This document shows, in pieces, positions 3,688-15,288 of a DNA stretch of 35,108 nucleotides. The notes under the pieces are model-generated. The model ran no database searches. It had not been told where the DNA came from and saw only the letters and a program-made list of their open reading frames with translations. The DNA is from Desulfobacteraceae bacterium (GTDB lineage: Bacteria; Desulfobacterota; Desulfobacteria; Desulfobacterales; JAJDOA01): assembly GCA_022340405.1 (NCBI GenBank), contig JAJDOA010000138.1, positions 1-35,108 of the forward strand, in the 5' to 3' direction. The first letter of the stretch is position 1. The number at the start of each line of letters is the position of its first letter. The position numbers were made by a program, and so were the translations under genes.

Positions 3688-5328
3688 TTACCGTCTCCCC
3701 GTCTGGCCAGGCCGCTTGCGGGGCTTCAGTGCGGGACGCCGGGTGGATGAAAGCGTCCGTTTGGAGGGGGATCCGGTGCGCATGGAACCGAGAAAGCCGA
3801 TCAGAAACGCCGCGAAAGCGGCCAAGAAGAAGATCGCGGGCCAGAACTGACCGTTCGACTTCGGGCGGGATTTCTTTTCCCGCTGGCCCGGGGCGCTCTT
3901 TTCCCTGCTTGACGACAGCAATCGCTTCACCTTGCGGGCAATGGTGTCCAGCAGATTGTCTCTTCGCGGCGGGCGGCTGGCCCGGGCCTTGCGAGGCGGG
4001 GCTTTTGGGGGTGCGGCGGCCCGGGCCGGCGGTTGTTTGGCCGGCTTCTGCAGTTCCCCCTGCAGTCGCGCCAGCAGATCCTTGCGGCTTTTCATGGGAG
4101 CCGAATTTGGGCCGTGCCTTTCGGTCAGAATGGCGAAAGCACGGCGGTAGAGCGCTTCGGCTTCCTCGAGCCTGCCCTGCCGCATGAAGAGATATCCGAG
4201 GTCCTCCATGGCCAACGCCGTTTCATCGGCCTCGGGTCCGTGGGCACTGCGGCGAATGTCCAAGGCGCCGCGGTACAGGCGTTCTGCGGTCTTTTCATCC
4301 CCCTTTTCGAGGTAGCACCGGGCTTGGAGGGCGATGGCTTCCGCTACGCTGGGATGGTTGTCGCCGAATTTCTCCCGGGCGCTTTGTCCGGCTTCCACGG
4401 CGGCTACGAGGGCTTCGGCGGTCTTCCCCTGCCGGATCAGAAGGCGAATTGCGGCGATCTCCTCGTCCCATCCGGGCGGTTGGGAAGCCTCCGGTCCGGA
4501 GATCGGCGAAGAAACGAGCACCTCCGGCGCAGGGGCGGTTTTTGCGTCCGATTGCCGGGTCTTCAGGTTTGCGATGGTTCTCTCCAGGGCCACCACCCGA
4601 TTGTGTCCGGACGGATATTGTCGTTTCCAGACGCCCAAGGCCTGTTCGTACATGGCCAGGGCGTCGGCGTACCGCCCCTGATCCCTGTACATCCGGGCCA
4701 GGAACATGGACGACTCCGCGACGTAGTTGTGGTCTTCGCCGAACGCCTTTTTCCGGATCGCAAGCGCCCGCAGGCCCAGCGCCTCTGCCGACACGAAATT
4801 CTTTCGGCGCTGGTCGATATAGGCCAGGCTCGTCAGGATCGTTGCTGCGCCCGCGTCGTCCGGGCCGCGGGTTTTTTCGATGATGCCCAGGGCTTCGCGG
4901 TACAGGGGCACCGCCTTGTCGAAATCCTGGAGGTTGGCATGGCTTCCGGCAAGGGTCTGGATGTAGAAGGCGGTCCTCGCATCGGCCGACCCGTATGTTT
5001 TGCGGGCCACTTCCAGGGCTTGGCGGGCGTATTCCAGCGCCGCCTCGCGATCCCGGTTCCAGGCGTGGATGTTGGCGATCCGGCTCAGGGTGGAGGCGGC
5101 CTGGGGGCTGGAAGCCCCGAAGCGATCCCGAGCGATGGCAAGCGCCTCGCCAGCCGCCTTCAGGGCCTGTTCGTATTGTTTCTCCTTCTGGAAGGCGATG
5201 GCTTCGTCGATCTTTTTCTTCCACGGATCCGCGGCGGCAGCGGGGTTTGCCTGTGCGCAGAAAAGCAGCAGAGAGAAAACGATTGCAAGGACACCGCCGA
5301 TGGATTTCACGGTCCGTCTCCAAACCAC
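3688..5328 (-). CDS. Tetratricopeptide-repeat protein with signal peptide and C-terminal transmembrane helix
   Basis: Repeated kinesin-light-chain-type TPRs (ALEYARQALEVARKTYG..., ADALAMYEQALGVWKRQ..., AEALYRRAFAILTERHGPN); hydrophobic N-terminus; AIFFLAAFAAFLIGFLGSM near C-terminus. Confidence 0.82.
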   Translation of the reverse strand: MVWRRTVKSIGGVLAIVFSLLLFCAQANPAAAADPWKKKIDEAIAFQKEKQYEQALKAAGEALAIARDRFGASSPQAASTLSRIANIHAWNRDREAALEYARQALEVARKTYGSADARTAFYIQTLAGSHANLQDFDKAVPLYREALGIIEKTRGPDDAGAATILTSLAYIDQRRKNFVSAEALGLRALAIRKKAFGEDHNYVAESSMFLARMYRDQGRYADALAMYEQALGVWKRQYPSGHNRVVALERTIANLKTRQSDAKTAPAPEVLVSSPISGPEASQPPGWDEEIAAIRLLIRQGKTAEALVAAVEAGQSAREKFGDNHPSVAEAIALQARCYLEKGDEKTAERLYRGALDIRRSAHGPEADETALAMEDLGYLFMRQGRLEEAEALYRRAFAILTERHGPNSAPMKSRKDLLARLQGELQKPAKQPPARAAAPPKAPPRKARASRPPRRDNLLDTIARKVKRLLSSSREKSAPGQREKKSRPKSNGQFWPAIFFLAAFAAFLIGFLGSMRTGSPSKRTLSSTRRPALKPRKRPGQTGRR

Positions 5329-5670: not shown

Positions 5671-6381
5671 ATGGGATATCTGCTGCTGGAAGGAGGCGCC
5701 GAGTTCGGTGGTGAAATGGCCGCAGCGGACCGGAGGGCCCTGGATCTGGCCGGCGGCGACGAAGCCCCCGTGGACATCGTTCCGGCCGCGGCAGCGCCGG
5801 ACGGAAACCATGAAAGGGCAGGCCGGCGCGGTGTGATGTGGTTTCAGGGCCTCGGGGCCCGGAAGGTGGTCAGCCGACCGCTGATCGACGAGGCCTCGGC
5901 CCGCCGGCCCGAGATCGCCGATGCCCTGTGCCGCTCCCGGCTTGTGTACCTTTTGGGTGGCTTTCCGGCCCACCTGGCCGCTTCCCTGCTGGACACCCCC
6001 TGTCAGGACAGCATGCTGTCGGTCGTGAAAACCGGCGGCGTGGTCGGCGGCAGCAGCGCCGGCGCCATGGTGCTGTGCGACACTTTCTACGATCCGAAGA
6101 CCGACCGTCTCCGAAAAGGCCTCGGCCTGTTGTCGGGCGCCGTCATCATCCCCCATCACGACACGTACGGGAGCCGGTGGGTGGGCCGTCTGCGGGACAT
6201 GCTGCCCGACGTCCTCCTCCTCGGAATCGACGAGGAAACCGGTTTGATCAACGACGCCCCCGGCGGCGGCTGGACCGTCTACGGCAAAGGTGGTGCGACG
6301 CTGCACGGACGATCGCAACGCCGGTGCTACGCGGCCGGCAAGCGGATCCCCGGAGACAAGTTGCAGATGCCGGTCGGCTGA
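5671..6381 (+). CDS. Peptidase S51 / cyanophycinase-like protein
   Basis: GGSSAGAM nucleophile-elbow motif, YLLGGFP, IIPHHDTYGSRWVGRL; start at MGYLLLEGG after gggagacggcaATG. Confidence 0.72.
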   Translation: MGYLLLEGGAEFGGEMAAADRRALDLAGGDEAPVDIVPAAAAPDGNHERAGRRGVMWFQGLGARKVVSRPLIDEASARRPEIADALCRSRLVYLLGGFPAHLAASLLDTPCQDSMLSVVKTGGVVGGSSAGAMVLCDTFYDPKTDRLRKGLGLLSGAVIIPHHDTYGSRWVGRLRDMLPDVLLLGIDEETGLINDAPGGGWTVYGKGGATLHGRSQRRCYAAGKRIPGDKLQMPVG

Positions 6382-6536: not shown

Positions 6537-7802
6537 ATGGGAATCATCGCTCTGATGGGATCGGGAGAGCTGACCGCCACCATGGTGGAGGTCCACAAAT
6601 CGCTGCTTTCGCGGCTGCCCGCCAAGGCCGAGGCCTCCTTTCTCGACACGCCCGCAGGATTCCAGCTCAATGCAGGCCAGATCGCCGCGAACGCGGTCGA
6701 CTACTTTCGCAGCCGTGTGGGCCATCCCATGCAGACCGCTTCCTACCCTTGCCGGGAGTCCATTTCGGAACTGGATGCCGCCGTTGCCTTCCAGCGGCTC
6801 CGGGATTCGGATTTTGTGCTGATGGGGCCGGGAAGCCCCACCTACACCGTGGACCAGCTTCGCGGATCCCCCATTCCGCAGATCCTCGCAGAGCGCGTCC
6901 GGGACGGCGGCTGCCTCGTTGCGGCCAGCGCCGCCGCACTGACGGTGGGTCGCTTCACACTGCCGGTATATGAGATCTACAAGGTCGGACAGCCGCTGCA
7001 CTGGGTGCCGGGACTGGACCTGCTGGGCGAGTTCGGGTTGGACCTGGTGGTCGTCCCCCACTGGAACAACGCGGAGGGGGGGACCCACGACACGAGCCGG
7101 TGCTTCATGGGAAAGTCCCGGTTCGAGAAGCTCACGGCGATGCTGGAGGAGCCGGTGCCGGTGCTGGGTATCGACGAGCACACCGCCTGCATCATCGATC
7201 TGGCCTCCGGAACCTTTGCCGTACGGGGCATCGGCAGCGCCCGTCTCCAGCAGCGGCAGGGCGCCCGGGTCTTTTCCGCGGGAGAGGACTATCCGGTGGA
7301 GGTCCTCCGGGGCGGCGAAACAACTTCCGGCAGCTTCGAACACGCCGACACCCCTTTCCCTCCGGCCGTGCCCTCGGACGCGGAGGGGGAAGAAGAAGAC
7401 TTCTGGCGCAGGGTCCATGCCAGGCAGGCCCAGTTCCAAGAAGGGCTTTCGGAGGGGGACGTGACAAGATCCGCCCAGGCCCTGCTGGAGCTGGACCGGA
7501 TGTTGTGGAAGGCGCAGGCCGATCTGGAAAATCCGGACATCATCGCCCAGGCCCGGGACCTGTTCCGCGAGCTGCTGGTGCTGGTGGGCACCCAGTGCCG
7601 GCCGACGCTGCCGAACCTGCAGCGGGCGCTGGCGCCGCTGGTCGATGACCTGCTGGCCTCGCGGCAGCGGTTCCGGAAAGACGGGTATTGGGATGCGGCC
7701 GATGCGATCCGGAATGCGTTGGCCCGGGTCGGCGTGGTCGTGGAGGACACCCCACGGGGGCCTCGCTGGCGCCTCGAACCGGAAGCGGAGGACAATCCAT
7801 GA
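6537..7802 (+). CDS. S51-like/type 1 glutamine amidotransferase-fold protein with C-terminal CysRS anticodon-binding-like segment
   Basis: N-terminal MGIIALMGSGELTATM...MGPGSPTYTV...AASAAALTVG...GIDEHTACI; C-terminal LVDDLLASRQRFRKDGYWDAADAIRNALARVGVVVEDTPRGPRWRLE resembles the C-terminal end of CysRS. Confidence 0.7.
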   Translation: MGIIALMGSGELTATMVEVHKSLLSRLPAKAEASFLDTPAGFQLNAGQIAANAVDYFRSRVGHPMQTASYPCRESISELDAAVAFQRLRDSDFVLMGPGSPTYTVDQLRGSPIPQILAERVRDGGCLVAASAAALTVGRFTLPVYEIYKVGQPLHWVPGLDLLGEFGLDLVVVPHWNNAEGGTHDTSRCFMGKSRFEKLTAMLEEPVPVLGIDEHTACIIDLASGTFAVRGIGSARLQQRQGARVFSAGEDYPVEVLRGGETTSGSFEHADTPFPPAVPSDAEGEEEDFWRRVHARQAQFQEGLSEGDVTRSAQALLELDRMLWKAQADLENPDIIAQARDLFRELLVLVGTQCRPTLPNLQRALAPLVDDLLASRQRFRKDGYWDAADAIRNALARVGVVVEDTPRGPRWRLEPEAEDNP

Positions 7803-9457
7803 TCTCCCATCCCGATTTGAACGTTCTCGTCGTGTCGGAAGCCGGCAGGGAGCAGGGCTTTCCGTGGCCCGGCTTCGGCGGTGACATGGCCCACTTGCAC
7901 GTTTCACGGGAAGCCTCCATACCGGACGATCTGACCGCATATCACGCTGTCGTCACTGCAGCGGGGATGGTGCGGCCTGGGAAGGCCGAACGGCTGCTGC
8001 AATTTGTCCACGCGGGCGGGGCGTGGCTTGCCATGAGCGGCCTGCAGGAAGATCCGCTGCCCGACGCTTTCGGCGCACAACCCGAGGGCGTCGGTCCTCG
8101 GGCCGAGCTGCGGGTGCTCTTGCAAAACGCCCACGATCCCCTTGCCGTGCGCCTGCCGGATGCGGTATACGTTGCGGGCCGTTACCACCCCCTACAGAGC
8201 GTCGCTCCCGACGCCGAAACCGTGCTCTACGCCGACTGGCATTACGGCCACAGTCCCGTATTCATCACCCGTTCCCACGGGGCCGGACACCTGGCTTGCA
8301 CGACGCTGCAGGATTTTTCCGCCAACATGCTCCGGCAGGTGATCCACCGGCTGCTGCGCCGGTGGCGGGGCTCGGCCCCGTCCCCCGAAACCAGGCTGGG
8401 CGTGGGCATCCTGGGCTATGCGCCGTCCATTGGGCAGGTACACGGCCTGGCGGCCGAGCGCACACCGGGGCTTCGCATCGCGGCCGCCTGCGATCTGAAC
8501 GCCCAGCGGCTCGCCCAGGCAGCGAAGGATTTTCCCGGCATCGCAACCTACGACCATTCCGCAAGGCTCGCCGAAGACCCGGACGTAGACTTGGTGATCG
8601 TGGCGACGGCGCCCGATACGCACGCCCGGCTGTCCGTGGAGATGATGGACGCAGGAAAGCATGTTCTCTGCGAAAAGCCCCTGGCACTCAACCGCCGGGA
8701 GACCGACGCCATGCAGGAAACGGCGGAGCGGCGAAAGGTCCACCTGAGCTGCCATCAAAACCGCCGGTTCGATCCCGACTTTCGCGCCATCCGCGACTGC
8801 GTGGCCGGCGGCCGAATCGGTGAACTGTTCTATCTGGAGACCTTCGTGGGTCAATACCACCACCCCTGCGGCTACTGGCACTCCCACGCTCCGGTCTGCG
8901 GCGGCACCGCCTACGACTGGGGTGCCCACTATCTGGACTGGATCGTGGGGCTGATGCCGCATTCCGTAACGTCCGTGGTCGGCACCCGACACAAGCGAGT
9001 GTGGCATGACGTCACCAACGCGGATCAGGAGCGCATTCAGATCCGATTCGCCGACGGCCGGGAGGCGGAGTTCCTCCACTCGGACATCGCCGCGGCCCGC
9101 AAGCCCAAGTGGTACCTTCTCGGCACCCGCGGTGCCATCGTGGGCGCCTGGAGGGACGTAACCGCGGTGGACGTCGATCCGGTGCACTACTTCGAGCAGA
9201 CCGATATCCCCGCAACGGAAATGATGCCCGACATCACCCTGTATCACCGGCGCGACTCGGGAGATCTGGAGCAAATCCGGCCGGCCGAGCCGGAGAGGGA
9301 TCCGCTGGCCTTCCATCGAAACCTGGCCGACCACCTGCTGTGGGGCGAACCGCTGGCCGCCCCCCTGGCCGATTCAGTCAAGGTGGTGGCGTTGCTGGAG
9401 GCGGCCTCCCGCTCCATGGCAAACGGGGGAAGTGTGGAGGTGCTCGATGGCCGATAA
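7799..9457 (+). CDS. ThuA-like domain fused to Gfo/Idh/MocA family oxidoreductase
   Basis: ATGA overlap with upstream gene; N-terminal ~190 aa ThuA-like (FVHAGGAWLAMSG, ...HSPVFITRSHGAGHLACTTL); C-terminal Rossmann RLGVGILGYAPSIGQVHG and HVLCEKPLALN. Confidence 0.75.
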   Translation: MISHPDLNVLVVSEAGREQGFPWPGFGGDMAHLHVSREASIPDDLTAYHAVVTAAGMVRPGKAERLLQFVHAGGAWLAMSGLQEDPLPDAFGAQPEGVGPRAELRVLLQNAHDPLAVRLPDAVYVAGRYHPLQSVAPDAETVLYADWHYGHSPVFITRSHGAGHLACTTLQDFSANMLRQVIHRLLRRWRGSAPSPETRLGVGILGYAPSIGQVHGLAAERTPGLRIAAACDLNAQRLAQAAKDFPGIATYDHSARLAEDPDVDLVIVATAPDTHARLSVEMMDAGKHVLCEKPLALNRRETDAMQETAERRKVHLSCHQNRRFDPDFRAIRDCVAGGRIGELFYLETFVGQYHHPCGYWHSHAPVCGGTAYDWGAHYLDWIVGLMPHSVTSVVGTRHKRVWHDVTNADQERIQIRFADGREAEFLHSDIAAARKPKWYLLGTRGAIVGAWRDVTAVDVDPVHYFEQTDIPATEMMPDITLYHRRDSGDLEQIRPAEPERDPLAFHRNLADHLLWGEPLAAPLADSVKVVALLEAASRSMANGGSVEVLDGR

Positions 9458-10490
9458 GCTGCGCTGGGGCATCCTGGGCAATGCCACCATCGGGCGCAAG
9501 TGCGTGATGCCGGCCATCCGCAAATCGACCAACGGGAAGATCCGGGCCCTGGGCACGCGACGGCCCGATGCAGCCGGGGAGATTGCGAAACAAAACCGGA
9601 TCGAGCGCGTCTACGGCGACTACGAATCCGTCCTCCGGGACCCGGAGGTGGAAGCGGTCTACATCCCCCTGCCCAATCACCTCCACCGGCCCTGGACACT
9701 GAAGGCCCTTGCCGCCGGAAAGCATGTGCTGTGTGAAAAACCGCTTGGCTGCAGTGCCGAACAAGCCCGGGAAATGGCCGCTGCGGCCCGCGGCAGCGGG
9801 CTTGTCCTGATGGAAGCGCTGATGTACCGGTTTCACCCCCGCACCCGACGGGTTAAGGGACTGATCGGCGAGGGAGCCGTCGGCACTCCGCGGCTGGTCC
9901 GGGCCGCCTTCTGTTTTTCCATGGCACCGGAGCTGCTGGAAAGCGGCGACAACTGCCGCCTACAGCCGAAAATGGGCGGCGGCGCACTGCTGGACGTGGG
10001 AAGCTATGCGGTAAGCGTCGCACGATGGTTTTTGGAGGCGGAGCCCGCGGCCGTTCAGGCCCAGGCCGTATACCGTGGCAAGACCGAGGTGGACATTCAC
10101 CTGGTGGGAACCCTGCGCTTTCCCGGGGGCGCCTTGGCGACCGTGGAGGCCAGTTTCTGTGCGGGCCTACAGCAGTCCTACACGGTGGTCGGCTCCGGCG
10201 GTGCCGTCGAACTGCCCCACGACGCCTTCATCCCCTGGGAGAAGGATGCCGCCGTCATGGTACGGGGAAAGGATGAGGAAACCGGAAAGACCCTTGTTGT
10301 ACCCGGTGCCGACGAGTACCGGCTGATGGTGGAGCACTTCGCCGACCGGGTGCGCACCGGAAAAGCCCCCACCGTGTCGGTCGAAGACAGCATCGGCAAC
10401 CTGGTGGCGCTGGACGCGATGGCCGAGGCGGCCCGGACCGGCCGAACCGTTTTCATCTCCCAGGAGGATCCGTCATCACGAAAACCCTGA
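9447..10490 (+). CDS. Gfo/Idh/MocA family oxidoreductase
   Basis: LRWGILGNATIGRKCVMPAI, HVLCEKPLGCSAEQA, GGGALLDVGSYAVS; overlaps upstream stop. Confidence 0.87.
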   Translation: MADKLRWGILGNATIGRKCVMPAIRKSTNGKIRALGTRRPDAAGEIAKQNRIERVYGDYESVLRDPEVEAVYIPLPNHLHRPWTLKALAAGKHVLCEKPLGCSAEQAREMAAAARGSGLVLMEALMYRFHPRTRRVKGLIGEGAVGTPRLVRAAFCFSMAPELLESGDNCRLQPKMGGGALLDVGSYAVSVARWFLEAEPAAVQAQAVYRGKTEVDIHLVGTLRFPGGALATVEASFCAGLQQSYTVVGSGGAVELPHDAFIPWEKDAAVMVRGKDEETGKTLVVPGADEYRLMVEHFADRVRTGKAPTVSVEDSIGNLVALDAMAEAARTGRTVFISQEDPSSRKP

Positions 10491-10510: not shown

Positions 10511-11488
10511 TTGGATGTCCGGGTGACGCCCGTTACCATGTCCGACCTGCCCGGACTCCGCTTCCCCGGCGACCAGCCCTGGCCGCAGCGGAACCCATTT
10601 GTAACGCCGGCCTGGCTGACGGCATGGTGGACTTACTTCGGCCGGAATCACAGACCGTTGATTCTGCGAGTGGACGTGAGGGGCCGCATGGCCGGCGTGG
10701 CGCCGCTGATGGTTCAAAACGGAACGGCCCGGTTCATGGGCTCGGAGGATCTGTGCGACCATGGCGACTTTCCGTCGAATCCCTTCCACCGGGAGGTATT
10801 TTTTTCGGCCCTGCTGCGGCACCTGAAAGACATGGGGGTCCACCGTCTGATGTTGGCATCGGTGCGACCGGATTCCGCCGTTCTTCGGTGGATCGTGCCG
10901 GCCGCACATGCCGCCGGATGTCGTGTGTCGGTGCTTCCGAAGGGCGTCTCCATGGAAATGGGCCTGCCCGCAAGCTGGGAAGCGTACCTCGGGGCATTGG
11001 AGGGCAAGCAACGGCACGAGGTGCGGCGGAAACTGCGCCGGGCGTCCGAAGCCGGCCGAATGACCCTTCGTACGGTTCAACATGCGGCAGAGGCCTCCGC
11101 CGGGATGGACGGCTTTCTGCGGTTGTTCCGCCGGAGCCGTCCGGACAAGCGGCGGTTTTTGACGCCCGAACGGGAAGCCTTTTTCCGTGCACTGGCCGAC
11201 GAACTGTCCCGGGCGGGCATGCTTCGGCTGAACCTGATCGAAATCGACAACCGCCCGGCTGCGGCCACCTTCTGCGTCCATCTCGGAAATACGACCTATC
11301 TGTACAACAGCGGTTTCGACCCCGTGTTTCGGGACATCTCCATCGGCATTGTCAGCAAACTGATGAGCATCCGGGAAAGCATTGAAAACGGTTTCGAAGT
11401 CTATGATTTTTTGAACGGAACCGAGCGTTACAAATACCGGCTGGGGGGAAAAGAGGTGTCGCTGTCCAGTTGCGTCGTGGAGTGGTGA
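10511..11488 (+). CDS. CelD/BcsL-type GNAT acyltransferase (Acetyltransf_6-like)
   Basis: NPFVTPAWLTAWWTYFG, KQRHEVRRKLRRASEAG, YLYNSGFDPVFRDISIGIVS; TTG start in ORF track, true start uncertain. Confidence 0.72.
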   Translation: MDVRVTPVTMSDLPGLRFPGDQPWPQRNPFVTPAWLTAWWTYFGRNHRPLILRVDVRGRMAGVAPLMVQNGTARFMGSEDLCDHGDFPSNPFHREVFFSALLRHLKDMGVHRLMLASVRPDSAVLRWIVPAAHAAGCRVSVLPKGVSMEMGLPASWEAYLGALEGKQRHEVRRKLRRASEAGRMTLRTVQHAAEASAGMDGFLRLFRRSRPDKRRFLTPEREAFFRALADELSRAGMLRLNLIEIDNRPAAATFCVHLGNTTYLYNSGFDPVFRDISIGIVSKLMSIRESIENGFEVYDFLNGTERYKYRLGGKEVSLSSCVVEW

Positions 11489-11597: not shown

Positions 11598-12848
11598 ATG
11601 TCCCTTCGCATCGCCATGCTGAGCATCCACTCCAGTCCGTTGGGCCGGATGGGGACCCGCGACACCGGAGGGATGAGCGTGTACCTGCAGGAGCTGGCCC
11701 GCGAAATGGGAAGCCGGGGTCATTTTGTGGACATCTTCACCCGGGCCACTGCGAAAGAAACGGAGCCGGTCGTGAAACCCTTCCCCAACGTGCGCGTCGT
11801 CTCTTTGCACGTCCGCGGGGCGGAGAAGGCCCCCAAAACGGCGCTCTACGATCATGCGGAGGCGTTTGCGGCGGCCATGACCGACTTTTGCCGGGAGACG
11901 GCCATCGAGTACGACCTGATCCACAGCAACTACTGGCTGTCCGGCGTGGTCGGCAGCCGGTTCGCAATGCTGCACCCCTGCCCCCATTTCATTACCTTTC
12001 ACACCCTGGGCGCCGCCAAAATGACCTCGCGCAGCGGCCACACGGAAGACAGCCGCCGTGTCGACGTGGAGGCCGAGCTGGCGGCACGATGCGACGGGGT
12101 CATCGCCCCCACCGCGGCAGAACGCCTCCGGCTGATTTCGCTCTGCGGGGCAAGGTCAGAGACCATCCATGTCGTTCCCTGCGGCGTGAACCTGAAACGG
12201 TTCGCACCCGATGCAGGCGATGATGCCCCTGCCGAAGAGCTTCGAAAGGATCCGGGGCGGGCGGTGCTGCTCGGTGTGGGGCGCTTCGATCCCATGAAGG
12301 GCATTCAGCGGCTATTGGCCGGTGTCGCCTGCTTGAATGCCGCGGGCGCAGCCGTGGATCTGGTCCTCGTCGGCGGCGACGGCCCCGGCAGCCCGGAGCA
12401 CCGCCGTGTACGCCGGCAGGTCCGGGGCCTGGGAATGGACGAGCGGGTCCGAATCGTCGGCTCCGTCGATCATCGCAAGATGCCCAGCTACTACAGGGGT
12501 GCAGATGCCGTGGGGGTCGCCTCCCGGTACGAGAGTTTCGGCCTGGTCGTTCTGGAGGCCCTGGCCTGTGGCACGCCGGTGGTCTCCACGCCGGTGGGCG
12601 TTGCGCCGGAAGTGATCCGGCCCGGTGTGAACGGGTATTTGGCCGCCGCCGGAGATGCAGAAAGCCTTGCACAGACCATCGCGCGCACCCTGCGGTTAGC
12701 CCGGGAGCGAGATCCTCTGCAGATCCACGCCACCGTTTCCGAATTCGACTGGTCCCGGGTGGCGTCCCTGCTGTTGGATGCCTATCGTAAAAGCATTGAC
12801 CCAACACACCGCCATAAAATGGGAAAGCATCGTGAGCCAGCCATTTGA
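11598..12848 (+). CDS. GT4 glycosyltransferase, MshA-like
   Basis: GTRDTGGMSVYLQELAREMGSRGHFVDIFTR, YDLIHSNYWLSGVVG, VPCGVNLKRFAP, SRYESFGLVVLEALACGTPVVSTPVGVAPEVI. Confidence 0.83.
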   Translation: MSLRIAMLSIHSSPLGRMGTRDTGGMSVYLQELAREMGSRGHFVDIFTRATAKETEPVVKPFPNVRVVSLHVRGAEKAPKTALYDHAEAFAAAMTDFCRETAIEYDLIHSNYWLSGVVGSRFAMLHPCPHFITFHTLGAAKMTSRSGHTEDSRRVDVEAELAARCDGVIAPTAAERLRLISLCGARSETIHVVPCGVNLKRFAPDAGDDAPAEELRKDPGRAVLLGVGRFDPMKGIQRLLAGVACLNAAGAAVDLVLVGGDGPGSPEHRRVRRQVRGLGMDERVRIVGSVDHRKMPSYYRGADAVGVASRYESFGLVVLEALACGTPVVSTPVGVAPEVIRPGVNGYLAAAGDAESLAQTIARTLRLARERDPLQIHATVSEFDWSRVASLLLDAYRKSIDPTHRHKMGKHREPAI

Positions 12849-13527
12849 CATCATGGTCGTCGTCGCCCATCCGGACGATGCCGAGTTCGGAGCCGCCGGC
12901 ACCGTGGCCCGCTGGACGGCGGATGGCAAATCTGTCATCTACGTGGTGTGCACCAACGGCGACAAGGGAACCACCGACCGCCGCCTGGCTCCGGACGAAC
13001 TCTCCCGGATACGGATGGCGGAGCAACGGGAGGCGGCCCATCGGATCGGCGTCGGGGAGGTGACCTTTCTGGGAATGCCGGACCAGCAGCTGGAGGAAAC
13101 GTCGGAGTTCCGCGAAACGATCGTTCGCCTGATCCGGACGCACCGCCCCGACATCGTGATCACCTCCGATCCCTACCGCCGGTATCTGTGGCACCGGGAC
13201 CACCGCATCGTCGGACAGGTGGTGGCAGACGCAATGTTTCCGTATGCCCGGGACCACATGGCCTATCCGGAGATGTTGGCCGAAGGCCTGGAGCCCCACA
13301 AGGTGAAAGAAGCCCTCTTTTTCGGTGCGGAGGAAATCAACCACCGCATCGACATTTCGGAAACCTTCCCCGACAAGCTGGCCGCGCTGCAATGCCACGA
13401 AAGCCAAGTCCGGGAACTGAACGTGGAAGATCTGGAAAACTGGCTGCGACAGCGCTGCCGTAAAGCGGCCGAAGGCACGCCGTACATGCTGGCAGAGGCG
13501 TTTTACCGGGTTCAAATGCCCGATTGA
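12832..13527 (+). CDS. PIG-L/LmbE family deacetylase, MshB/BshB-like
   Basis: VVVAHPDDAEFGAAGTVARW Zn-binding motif, CTNGDKGT, DPYRRYLWHRDHR; probable GTG start overlapping the upstream gene by 17 nt. Confidence 0.86.
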   Translation: MSQPFDIMVVVAHPDDAEFGAAGTVARWTADGKSVIYVVCTNGDKGTTDRRLAPDELSRIRMAEQREAAHRIGVGEVTFLGMPDQQLEETSEFRETIVRLIRTHRPDIVITSDPYRRYLWHRDHRIVGQVVADAMFPYARDHMAYPEMLAEGLEPHKVKEALFFGAEEINHRIDISETFPDKLAALQCHESQVRELNVEDLENWLRQRCRKAAEGTPYMLAEAFYRVQMPD

Positions 13528-13546: not shown

Positions 13547-14686
13547 ATGGAGAAGATTCGCATCGCCGTCGTGGGTGTGGGCAATTGCGTCAGTGCCTTG
13601 CTGCAGGGCATCCACTACTATGATGGGCAGGACGCCGGAACGGAAGCCACCGGGTTGATGTCACCGGAAATGGGCGGATACGGGCCATCGGATATTCTCG
13701 TTGCCACCGCCTACGACATCGACCGCCGCAAGGTCGACCTGGACGTCAGCCAGGCCGTTTTCCAGCCCCCCAACTGCACCACGGTATTCAACCCGGACCT
13801 GCCGCTGACCGGAGCCACCGTGAAGATGGGGGCAGTGCTGGACGGTGTGGCCGCTCACATGCGCGAACACGACCCCCGGCGCAGTTTCGACCCCGCCTCC
13901 CGGCCGGACGCCACCCACGAGGAGGTGATTTGCGATCTGCGGCGGAGCCGGGCGGAGGTGCTGGTGAATTTTCTGCCGGTGGGCGCCGAGGAAGCCACCG
14001 CATTCTATGTCCGTTGCGCCCTGGAGGCGGGCGTTGGGGTGGTCAACGGCATCCCGGTGTTCATCGCCAGCGATCCCGAATGGGCCGGCCGCTTTGCCGC
14101 CCGCGGGCTGCCGCTGATCGGCGACGATGTGAAATCCCAGATGGGGGCCACCATCGTCCACCGCACGTTGACGGACCTGTTCCGCCGCAGGGGAGTCGCC
14201 CTGGAGCGCACCTATCAGCTCAACACCGGCGGCAATACCGATTTTCTCAACATGCTGGACCGCAGCCGGCTCATATCGAAAAAGCGGTCCAAGACCGAAG
14301 CCGTCCAATCGGTTGCCGCCCGCCGCCTGGACGCCGCCGACATTCACATCGGCCCCAGCGACTACGTACCCTGGCAGCGGGACAACAAAGTGGGCTTCAT
14401 CCGGATGGAGGGGAAAATCTTCGGAAACGTGCCCATGCATCTGGAGATGCGGTTGTCCGTGGAGGACTCGCCCAACTCCGCCGGAGTGGTGATTGATGCG
14501 ATCCGCTGCGCCCGCCTGGCGATGGACCGCGGCCAGGGCGGGGTGCTGGAGGGTCCCTCGGCCTATTTTTGCAAGCACCCGCCGCGGCAGTACACCGACG
14601 ACGAGGCCTATCGTCTGGTGCAGGAATTCATCCAAGCCCCGACGCTGAACCCACAGGGGAAAACGAAGCAGACGGGCTGTCCATGA
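13547..14686 (+). CDS. ino1: Inositol-3-phosphate synthase (myo-inositol-1-phosphate synthase family)
   Basis: IRIAVVGVGNCVSALLQGIHYY, NVNPGGNTDF-like LNTGGNTDFLNMLDRSR, GPSDYVPWQRDNKVGFIRMEGKIFGNVPMHLEMRLSVEDSPNSAGVVIDAIR. Confidence 0.87.
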   Translation: MEKIRIAVVGVGNCVSALLQGIHYYDGQDAGTEATGLMSPEMGGYGPSDILVATAYDIDRRKVDLDVSQAVFQPPNCTTVFNPDLPLTGATVKMGAVLDGVAAHMREHDPRRSFDPASRPDATHEEVICDLRRSRAEVLVNFLPVGAEEATAFYVRCALEAGVGVVNGIPVFIASDPEWAGRFAARGLPLIGDDVKSQMGATIVHRTLTDLFRRRGVALERTYQLNTGGNTDFLNMLDRSRLISKKRSKTEAVQSVAARRLDAADIHIGPSDYVPWQRDNKVGFIRMEGKIFGNVPMHLEMRLSVEDSPNSAGVVIDAIRCARLAMDRGQGGVLEGPSAYFCKHPPRQYTDDEAYRLVQEFIQAPTLNPQGKTKQTGCP

Positions 14687-15288
14687 TCCGTGCAATCCTC
14701 TTCGACTTCGGCCGGGTTGTCTCCGCCCCCAAACCCCCATCGCTCTTCCGCCGATACGAGGTGGAGCTGGGCCTTTCCCCCGACACCATCAACACGGTCA
14801 TGTTCGATTCGCCCTACTGGCAGGATGCCCTGGTGGGGAAAACGGACATGGACGGCTACTGGCATGCCATCGGTCCGGCGCTGGGCCTGCACACACCGCA
14901 GGCGGTGGCGGACTTCCGGAAGCGCTATTACGCAGACGAGCGGATCAACGCCGGCGTTGTCCGGATGCTCCGCAAATTGTCGGGCACCCATTTGCTTGCG
15001 ATTCTCTCCAACCATCCCCCGGGGCTTCGGCAGTGGCTGGCCGACTGGGACATCGAAGGGTTGTTCGAGGTGGTTTTCTGCTCCGGCGACGAGGGCATCG
15101 CCAAGCCCGATTCCTGGGCATTCCGTGAAACCCTGCGGCGGCTGAACCTTGCGTCCCCCCGGGAGGCGGTGTTCGTCGACGACACCGAGGCACACGTGGC
15201 GGCGGCCCGAGAGCTGGGGATCCACGCCGTTCATTACACCACCACCGATGCCCTTGGGCGGGAGTTGGAAGCGCTCGGGTGTTGGTGA
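14683..15288 (+). CDS. HAD family hydrolase (YihX-like)
   Basis: ATGA overlap with ino1; ILFDFGRVVS motif I, ILSNHP motif II, KPDSWAF and FVDDTEAHVAAA motifs III/IV. Confidence 0.82.
   Translation: MIRAILFDFGRVVSAPKPPSLFRRYEVELGLSPDTINTVMFDSPYWQDALVGKTDMDGYWHAIGPALGLHTPQAVADFRKRYYADERINAGVVRMLRKLSGTHLLAILSNHPPGLRQWLADWDIEGLFEVVFCSGDEGIAKPDSWAFRETLRRLNLASPREAVFVDDTEAHVAAARELGIHAVHYTTTDALGRELEALGCW

Follow-up and report, generated by a model that had tools for sequence, protein, structure and literature searches.

What does a gene that joins a peptidase-like domain to the tail of a cysteinyl-tRNA synthetase (CysRS) do among genes that resemble those of mycothiol biosynthesis? The question is raised by a locus in the window, the whole 35,108-nt stretch of contig JAJDOA010000138.1 (GCA_022340405.1) that was analysed; all coordinates are positions in this window, on the forward strand. 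The fusion and the cluster around it point to a modified form of mycothiol biosynthesis in anaerobic bacteria. To our knowledge, the protective thiol of many anaerobic Desulfobacterota and Nitrospirota is poorly known.

Architecture and Distribution of the Fusion Gene

The fusion gene, here called S51CysS, starts with an ATG at 6537, ends at 7802 and encodes 421 amino acids. Residues 1-260 (6537-7316) form an S51 (cyanophycinase/dipeptidase E-like) domain, recognized by phmmer, Foldseek and Pfam S51. The tail (residues ~285-412, nt ~7389-7772) comprises a CysRS-type helical bundle in the DALR_2 position (residues 285-358, 7389-7610; CysRS profile alignments) and a CysRS anticodon-binding domain (CysS_C, PF23493; residues 364-412, 7626-7772; Pfam). 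These limits agree with those of a sequence-only reading of the same DNA, which had placed a CysRS-derived module at 7395-7799 behind an S51/amidotransferase-like part. The AlphaFold model (mean pLDDT 78, pTM 0.60) has three long helices in the helical-bundle region.

As that reading had also held, the gene carries no synthetase catalytic domain: Pfam and TIGRFAM profiles registered no match to tRNA-synt_1e or a HIGH- and KMSKS-bearing domain. Nor does the gene exceed the cut-off (485 bits) of the MshC model TIGR03447; by these membership tests S51CysS falls outside both CysRS and MshC. It is a real, conserved domain fusion. A chance match or a frameshift artefact as its origin is ruled out by conservation across the family and by several independent profile matches.

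At least 268 relatives were found by a scan of the genome collection, and the residue counts given below refer to the best 80 of these. The 80 belong to the Desulfobacterota, Nitrospirota and Syntrophomonadaceae/Bacillota, and nearly all come from metagenome-assembled genomes. Among 57 genomes of the host's order, each listed as a different family, nine encode a full-length S51CysS, the host included and the other eight at 49-55% identity; a tenth encodes a shorter, solo variant. One such short variant (L029:6513-7556), which also matches CysS_C, joins the S51 domain to the anticodon domain with no helical bundle and lies outside the cluster, and copies of similar shortness occur in G096 and G268. 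The family is unannotated, and a search of the open literature (subscription papers were outside its scope, so that its silence is weak evidence) found no earlier report of an S51-CysRS fusion, of this cluster or of tRNA-dependent thiol synthesis.

The S51 Domain

The N-terminal part of S51CysS is matched by phmmer to the cyanophycinase-like peptidase 6nqc (3e-5), and the top Foldseek matches of the model are 6nqc (8e-14), PepE 1fy2 (2e-10) and cyanophycinase 3en0, upholding the fold assigned from sequence. Pfam S51 matches nine of nine family members (best E=4.5e-7), the window copy scoring 16.9, below the curated cut-off of 23.9. By alignment to 6nqc, Ser131 (6927-6929) occupies the position of the S51 nucleophile, His175 (7059-7061) that of the histidine in the PH motif, and Glu214 (7176-7178), within GIDEHTA, that of the acid in the GxDExTA motif of 6nqc; all three residues are invariant in the best 80 of at least 268 relatives, which marks the family as one under selection.

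The CysRS-Derived Tail

The tail of S51CysS is derived from CysRS. Pfam CysS_C matches residues 364-412 (E=4.1e-10, 40.1 bits; cut-off 23), and a family profile built from nine S51CysS members finds the CysRS chains 8qhp (1.4e-8), 3tqo (7e-8) and E. coli 1li5/1u0b (1.8e-7), with matches that span the helical bundle and anticodon domain together. With the full CysRS model TIGR00435, residues 296-412 align only to model positions 346-464 of 466. The structural comparison that the sequence-only reading had suggested returned the S51 enzymes and, ranked after them, the CysRS:tRNA-Cys complex 1u0b (E=8.5e-3). Of the two CysRS domains that it had named for comparison, the C-terminal domain was matched but Pfam DALR_2 itself was not; the bundle is assigned because full-length CysRS profiles cover it.

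In E. coli CysRS, as described in PMC12684709 (citing Hauenstein 2004), Arg427 and Asp436 hydrogen-bond the anticodon base G34, which is stacked on Trp432, and Asp436 and Arg423 make water-mediated contacts to it. HMMER alignments place R423, R427, W432 and D436 opposite R376, R380, W385 and D389 of S51CysS (7662-7703). Among the best 80 of at least 268 relatives, R376 and D389 are present in all 80 and R380 in 79 (one R380K), and position 385 is always aromatic (65 W, 9 F, 6 Y). Of randomly drawn triples of tail positions, 0.2% are as conserved as R376, R380 and D389. The anticodon contacts are only part of the conserved tail positions, and judged from the alignments they could be kept for folding; nevertheless, the tail appears to have retained the means of reading tRNA-Cys.

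MshC derives from the cysteine-activating part of CysRS. The sequence-only reading had taken the kinship of MshC and CysRS as a hint of a cysteine- or tRNA-Cys-linked step; the tRNA-Cys half of this argument is sensible, but the connection to MshC chemistry is inexact, because the tail is the anticodon-reading part of CysRS.

Genomic Neighbourhood

In the window, the gene order is S51, S51CysS, a GFO/IDH-type oxidoreductase, GFO/IDH, GNAT, MshA, MshB, Ino1 and HAD, all on the forward strand. The second S51 gene (5671-6381; start uncertain), directly upstream of S51CysS, has an intact GGSSAGA motif; it adjoins the fusion in 26 of 80 loci, and its relatives are ~25-27% identical to the N-terminal domain of the fusion. 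Downstream, the gene for a two-domain GFO/IDH/MocA oxidoreductase (7799-9457) overlaps the S51CysS stop by 4 bases. This protein, whose N-terminal ~190 aa are matched by no Pfam model, is present in 40 of 80 loci, mostly at 50-66% identity. A second GFO/IDH/MocA oxidoreductase (9447-10490), recognized by Pfam, is followed by a FemX-like double-GNAT protein (Acetyltransf_6; 10511-11488), a candidate aminoacyl-tRNA-dependent transferase.

The next genes encode an MshA-like glycosyltransferase (11598-12848), a PIG-L deacetylase matching MshB/BshB profiles (12778-13527; start uncertain), an Ino1-like inositol-3-phosphate synthase (13547-14686; 400 bits with TIGR03450, cut-off 638) and a HAD phosphatase (14683-15288), which is found in 13 of 80 loci and is a candidate for MshA2-type dephosphorylation. 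The Ino1, MshA and MshB homologues of the window all score below the actinobacterial equivalog cut-offs. The inositol-phosphate-binding residues of MshA, which we take to be K78, Y110, T134 and R154 in the Corynebacterium glutamicum numbering, are kept in 46, 53, 52 and 53 of 53 copies, respectively, with identities confirmed in the alignment. A Syntrophomonadaceae locus (L099) has, divergent to the fusion gene, what reads as an inositol-monophosphatase-like gene (4409-5257), a possible phosphatase for the MshA product.

The link with MshA/MshB/Ino1-like genes, which had been noticed in this one gene run, is conserved far beyond the window. Where at least 5 kb of downstream sequence was available (50 loci), GNAT or MshA lies near S51CysS in 47 and two or more of GNAT, MshA and MshB are present in 45; Ino1 is present in 14 of 15 S51CysS carriers tested. 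Several Nitrospirota loci have the minimal recurring set, S51CysS-GNAT-MshA-MshB. A tail that did not match CysRS, or that was common on S51 proteins unlinked to such clusters, would speak against the earlier reading; the profiles do match CysRS, no such proteins were found, and the few cluster-unlinked copies of the fusion still share their genome with GNAT/MshA genes.

Co-Occurrence of S51CysS and the GNAT

Within the order set, the GNAT is encoded by ten of ten S51CysS carriers versus 2 of the 47 other genomes (P=1.5e-9), one of which is 65% complete; across 297 genomes of the phylum it is found in 28 of 33 carriers (P=6e-24). Both P values treat the genomes as independent, although they are related, and thus overstate the significance. 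In 12 of these 28 co-carriers, a comparison of contig numbers places the two genes on different contigs. In the Bacillota, S51CysS stands alone; the GNAT is encoded elsewhere in four of five genomes, and MshA lies near the GNAT.

Fourteen genomes of the phylum encode the GNAT, mostly adjoining MshA, without S51CysS; the fusion is therefore no absolute requirement. GNAT-MshA(-MshB) clusters that lack the fusion are seen in other families of the phylum (L156-L162, L164, L165); these may use another amino acid, or need no partner.

Known Cysteine Ligases and CysRS Paralogues

A hidden MshC or BshC elsewhere in the genome was considered and rejected for the 24 genomes searched. No protein exceeds the MshC cut-off (TIGR03447, 485 bits) in ten S51CysS carriers and 14 GNAT-only genomes, although the cut-off is exceeded in one of 14 control genomes; BshC is found in none of the 24, with positive controls in B. 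subtilis, Thermus and Deinobacterium.

CysRS paralogues, ordinary or fused, are likewise encoded by every S51CysS carrier, and one of them could serve as the ligase. A cysteine synthase-CysRS fusion (CysK-CysRS, ~760-850 aa) is found in almost every member of the 57-genome order set; examples are G000:C282:13990-16263 of the host (L118), L120-L124, L126 and L127. Its anticodon domain is kept, but HIGH is degraded and KMSKS is absent, so it is probably no ordinary synthetase. CysK-CysRS was rejected as a pathway-specific ligase, since it is near-universal in the order and its catalytic motifs are degraded. A usual CysRS of ~490 aa was not found in the host assembly, which does encode a CysRS-like protein (G000:C79:15961-16857, L125) that has KMSKS, lacks a C-terminal anticodon domain and reads WNVQD where the zinc-site WHIEC is usual.

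The FemX-Like GNAT

The structure model of the GNAT is confident (pLDDT 95), and its double-GNAT fold is, as modelled, closest to the FemX type. The best PDB matches are 9wqx/9wqy (Sbb17, Sba18; complexes with streptothrisamine), two peptide synthases described as dependent on aminoacyl-tRNA, followed by FemX and FemA, with MprF-type synthases further down. In BD-12 biosynthesis, Orf11, of the FemABX-like group, glycylates streptothrisamine, an amino-sugar compound, with Gly-tRNA as donor (PMC12945691). An MshC-free route to mycothiol would need a step of this kind, in which an aminoacyl group passes from a tRNA to an amino-sugar amine.

Among 54 GNAT members, Pfam matches Acetyltransf_6 in all, FemAB_like in 44 and FemAB in two; kinship to FemX is seen by structure comparison only, the GNAT having no sequence match to PDB FemX entries. 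Near the C-terminus, K308 is invariant (54 of 54) in the motif E-x-Y-K-x-x-L-G, which fits the lysine of FemX-type enzymes (FemX K305/DhpH-C K329; PMC12945691) by motif position. No acetyl-CoA loop motif is conserved among the 54; a regular expression for this loop matches at least once in 34 of them, at scattered positions, and is uninformative alone. This neighbour, whose likeness to aminoacyl-tRNA-dependent transferases the sequence-only reading had missed, is a more evident candidate for the attachment of the amino acid.

Proposed Function of S51CysS

From the domains, retained residues, linkage, co-occurrence, absence of MshC and BshC from the genomes searched, and structural kinship described above, we infer tRNA binding, cysteine transfer, a product and a division of labour. 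We give about even weight, for and against, to the proposal that S51CysS binds tRNA-Cys as one component of a pathway to a mycothiol-like thiol that does without MshC, with cysteine taken from Cys-tRNA-Cys and not from cysteinyl-AMP. In this pathway, Ino1 would supply inositol phosphate, MshA would add GlcNAc to it, a phosphatase (perhaps the HAD protein) would then take off the phosphate, and MshB would deacetylate the product to GlcN-inositol with a free amine. On this amine the FemX-like GNAT would form an amide, with Cys-tRNA-Cys as donor. S51CysS would grip tRNA-Cys via its anticodon domain; because the helical bundle is kept, its S51 serine site may sit at the charged CCA end, in the place of the CysRS catalytic site. 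There it would either hand on the cysteinyl group (via acyl-Ser131) or proofread the charged tRNA-Cys. Between the two proteins, the GNAT is the likelier cysteinyl transferase, because many genomes have it next to MshA but encode no S51CysS, whereas S51CysS is seldom found in the absence of the GNAT. Mature mycothiol is N-acetylated, which counts against this model, as no acetylating enzyme is placed in it.

Alternatively, S51CysS might itself be the cysteinyltransferase, in the role of MshC, passing the cysteinyl group of Cys-tRNA-Cys through acyl-Ser131 to the GlcN-Ins amine, with the GNAT acting as an MshD-like acetyltransferase. The triad positions are intact, the fusion copies the CysRS layout with the catalytic domain swapped, cyclodipeptide synthases are a precedent for acyl-serine chemistry on aminoacyl-tRNA, and the four core genes (fusion, GNAT, MshA, MshB) would pair one-to-one with the four MSH enzymes. 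However, the GNAT is nearer to tRNA-dependent FemX/Sbb17 than to acetyl-CoA enzymes and shows no conserved acetyl-CoA loop motif, the GNAT and MshA occur without S51CysS or MshC in 14 genomes, and amide formation in the cell is not known to us for any S51 enzyme; we therefore regard this assignment as possible but clearly short of probable. Its structural core we hold to be doubtful: a serine-hydrolase fold, the S51 domain, that forms amides with cysteine from Cys-tRNA-Cys through an acylated serine and is directed by an anticodon module transplanted from CysRS. If true, tRNA-dependent amide synthesis would gain a fold not seen in it before, and this would be the first case of a thiol pathway that runs on a charged tRNA.

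S51 enzymes are hydrolases, and with its triad positions intact S51CysS could instead act hydrolytically on tRNA-Cys, the tail targeting it, either clearing a wrong amino acid (e.g., serine) before the GNAT acts or freeing surplus cysteine. Anticodon-type targeting would suit proofreading in trans, and the GNAT can exist without S51CysS; on the other hand, general proofreading needs no linkage to MshA, MshB and Ino1, and S51CysS is missing from most genomes of the order, which makes such a role unlikely.

A tail that is a relic scaffold, on a peptidase or amidase with no RNA role that would act on the finished thiol or its conjugates, like Mca in the recycling of mycothiol, could draw on the cleavage of amide bonds by S51 enzymes and on the second S51 gene often adjacent (26 of 80). 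Yet the G34-contact positions are all kept across Desulfobacterota, Nitrospirota and Bacillota while the neighbouring linker diverged freely, which is unexpected for a relic, and we consider this very improbable. Least probable of all is that the actual ligase is a CysRS paralogue encoded at another locus: CysK-CysRS and the tail-less CysRS-like protein are both encoded in the host genome, but the former occurs in nearly all genomes of the order set, with and without the cluster, and has degraded HIGH/KMSKS, and the latter was not seen in those carrier genomes whose CysRS-like proteins were read.

If the preferred assignment, with the GNAT as transferase and S51CysS as its tRNA-Cys-binding partner, is true, many anaerobic Desulfobacterota and Nitrospirota gain a mycothiol-like thiol, this chemistry extends past the Actinobacteria, and a thiol pathway draws cysteine from the translation pool through a charged tRNA. 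It would give an unannotated fusion family of at least 268 relatives a testable function, and a further case of a synthetase tRNA-reading domain reused without its catalytic domain.

Comparison with Known Systems

S51CysS shares the fold and the Ser-His-Glu positions of peptidase family S51 (PepE, cyanophycinase, 6nqc), but has AASAAA where S51 enzymes have GxSAGA, carries invariant YEIYK and PHWNNAEGG motifs, and has gained the C-terminal CysRS module. With E. coli CysS (PDB 1u0b) it has in common the helical bundle, the anticodon domain and the G34-contact residues, whereas the S51 domain replaces the catalytic Rossmann domain.

The GNAT resembles FemX-type transferases (Sbb17/Sba18, Orf11 of BD-12) in its double-GNAT fold and its expected amino-sugar acceptor, and K308 is a candidate counterpart of their lysine near the C-terminus. 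FemX-type enzymes function without a separate anticodon-reading partner, a point against the proposed pathway; the GNAT differs in being paired with a separate protein that bears a putative tRNA-Cys-reading module, and in its predicted donor, Cys-tRNA.

With bacillithiol biosynthesis (BshA/B/C) the cluster shares a deacetylase with better scores against BshB1 models than against those for MshB, but the 24 genomes searched lack BshC and the glycosyltransferase is MshA-like, not BshA-like (265 versus 97 bits). The actinobacterial mycothiol pathway (Ino1, MshA, MshA2, MshB, MshC, MshD) has its counterparts in the clustered Ino1-, MshA- and MshB-like genes and in the shared inositol-phosphate residues of MshA; in place of MshC and MshD, with no MshC over the cut-off, stand S51CysS and the FemX-like GNAT. 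A 2018 survey found mshA-D in Actinobacteria only (PMC6282198), whereas the hosts of this cluster are Desulfobacterota, Nitrospirota and Bacillota.
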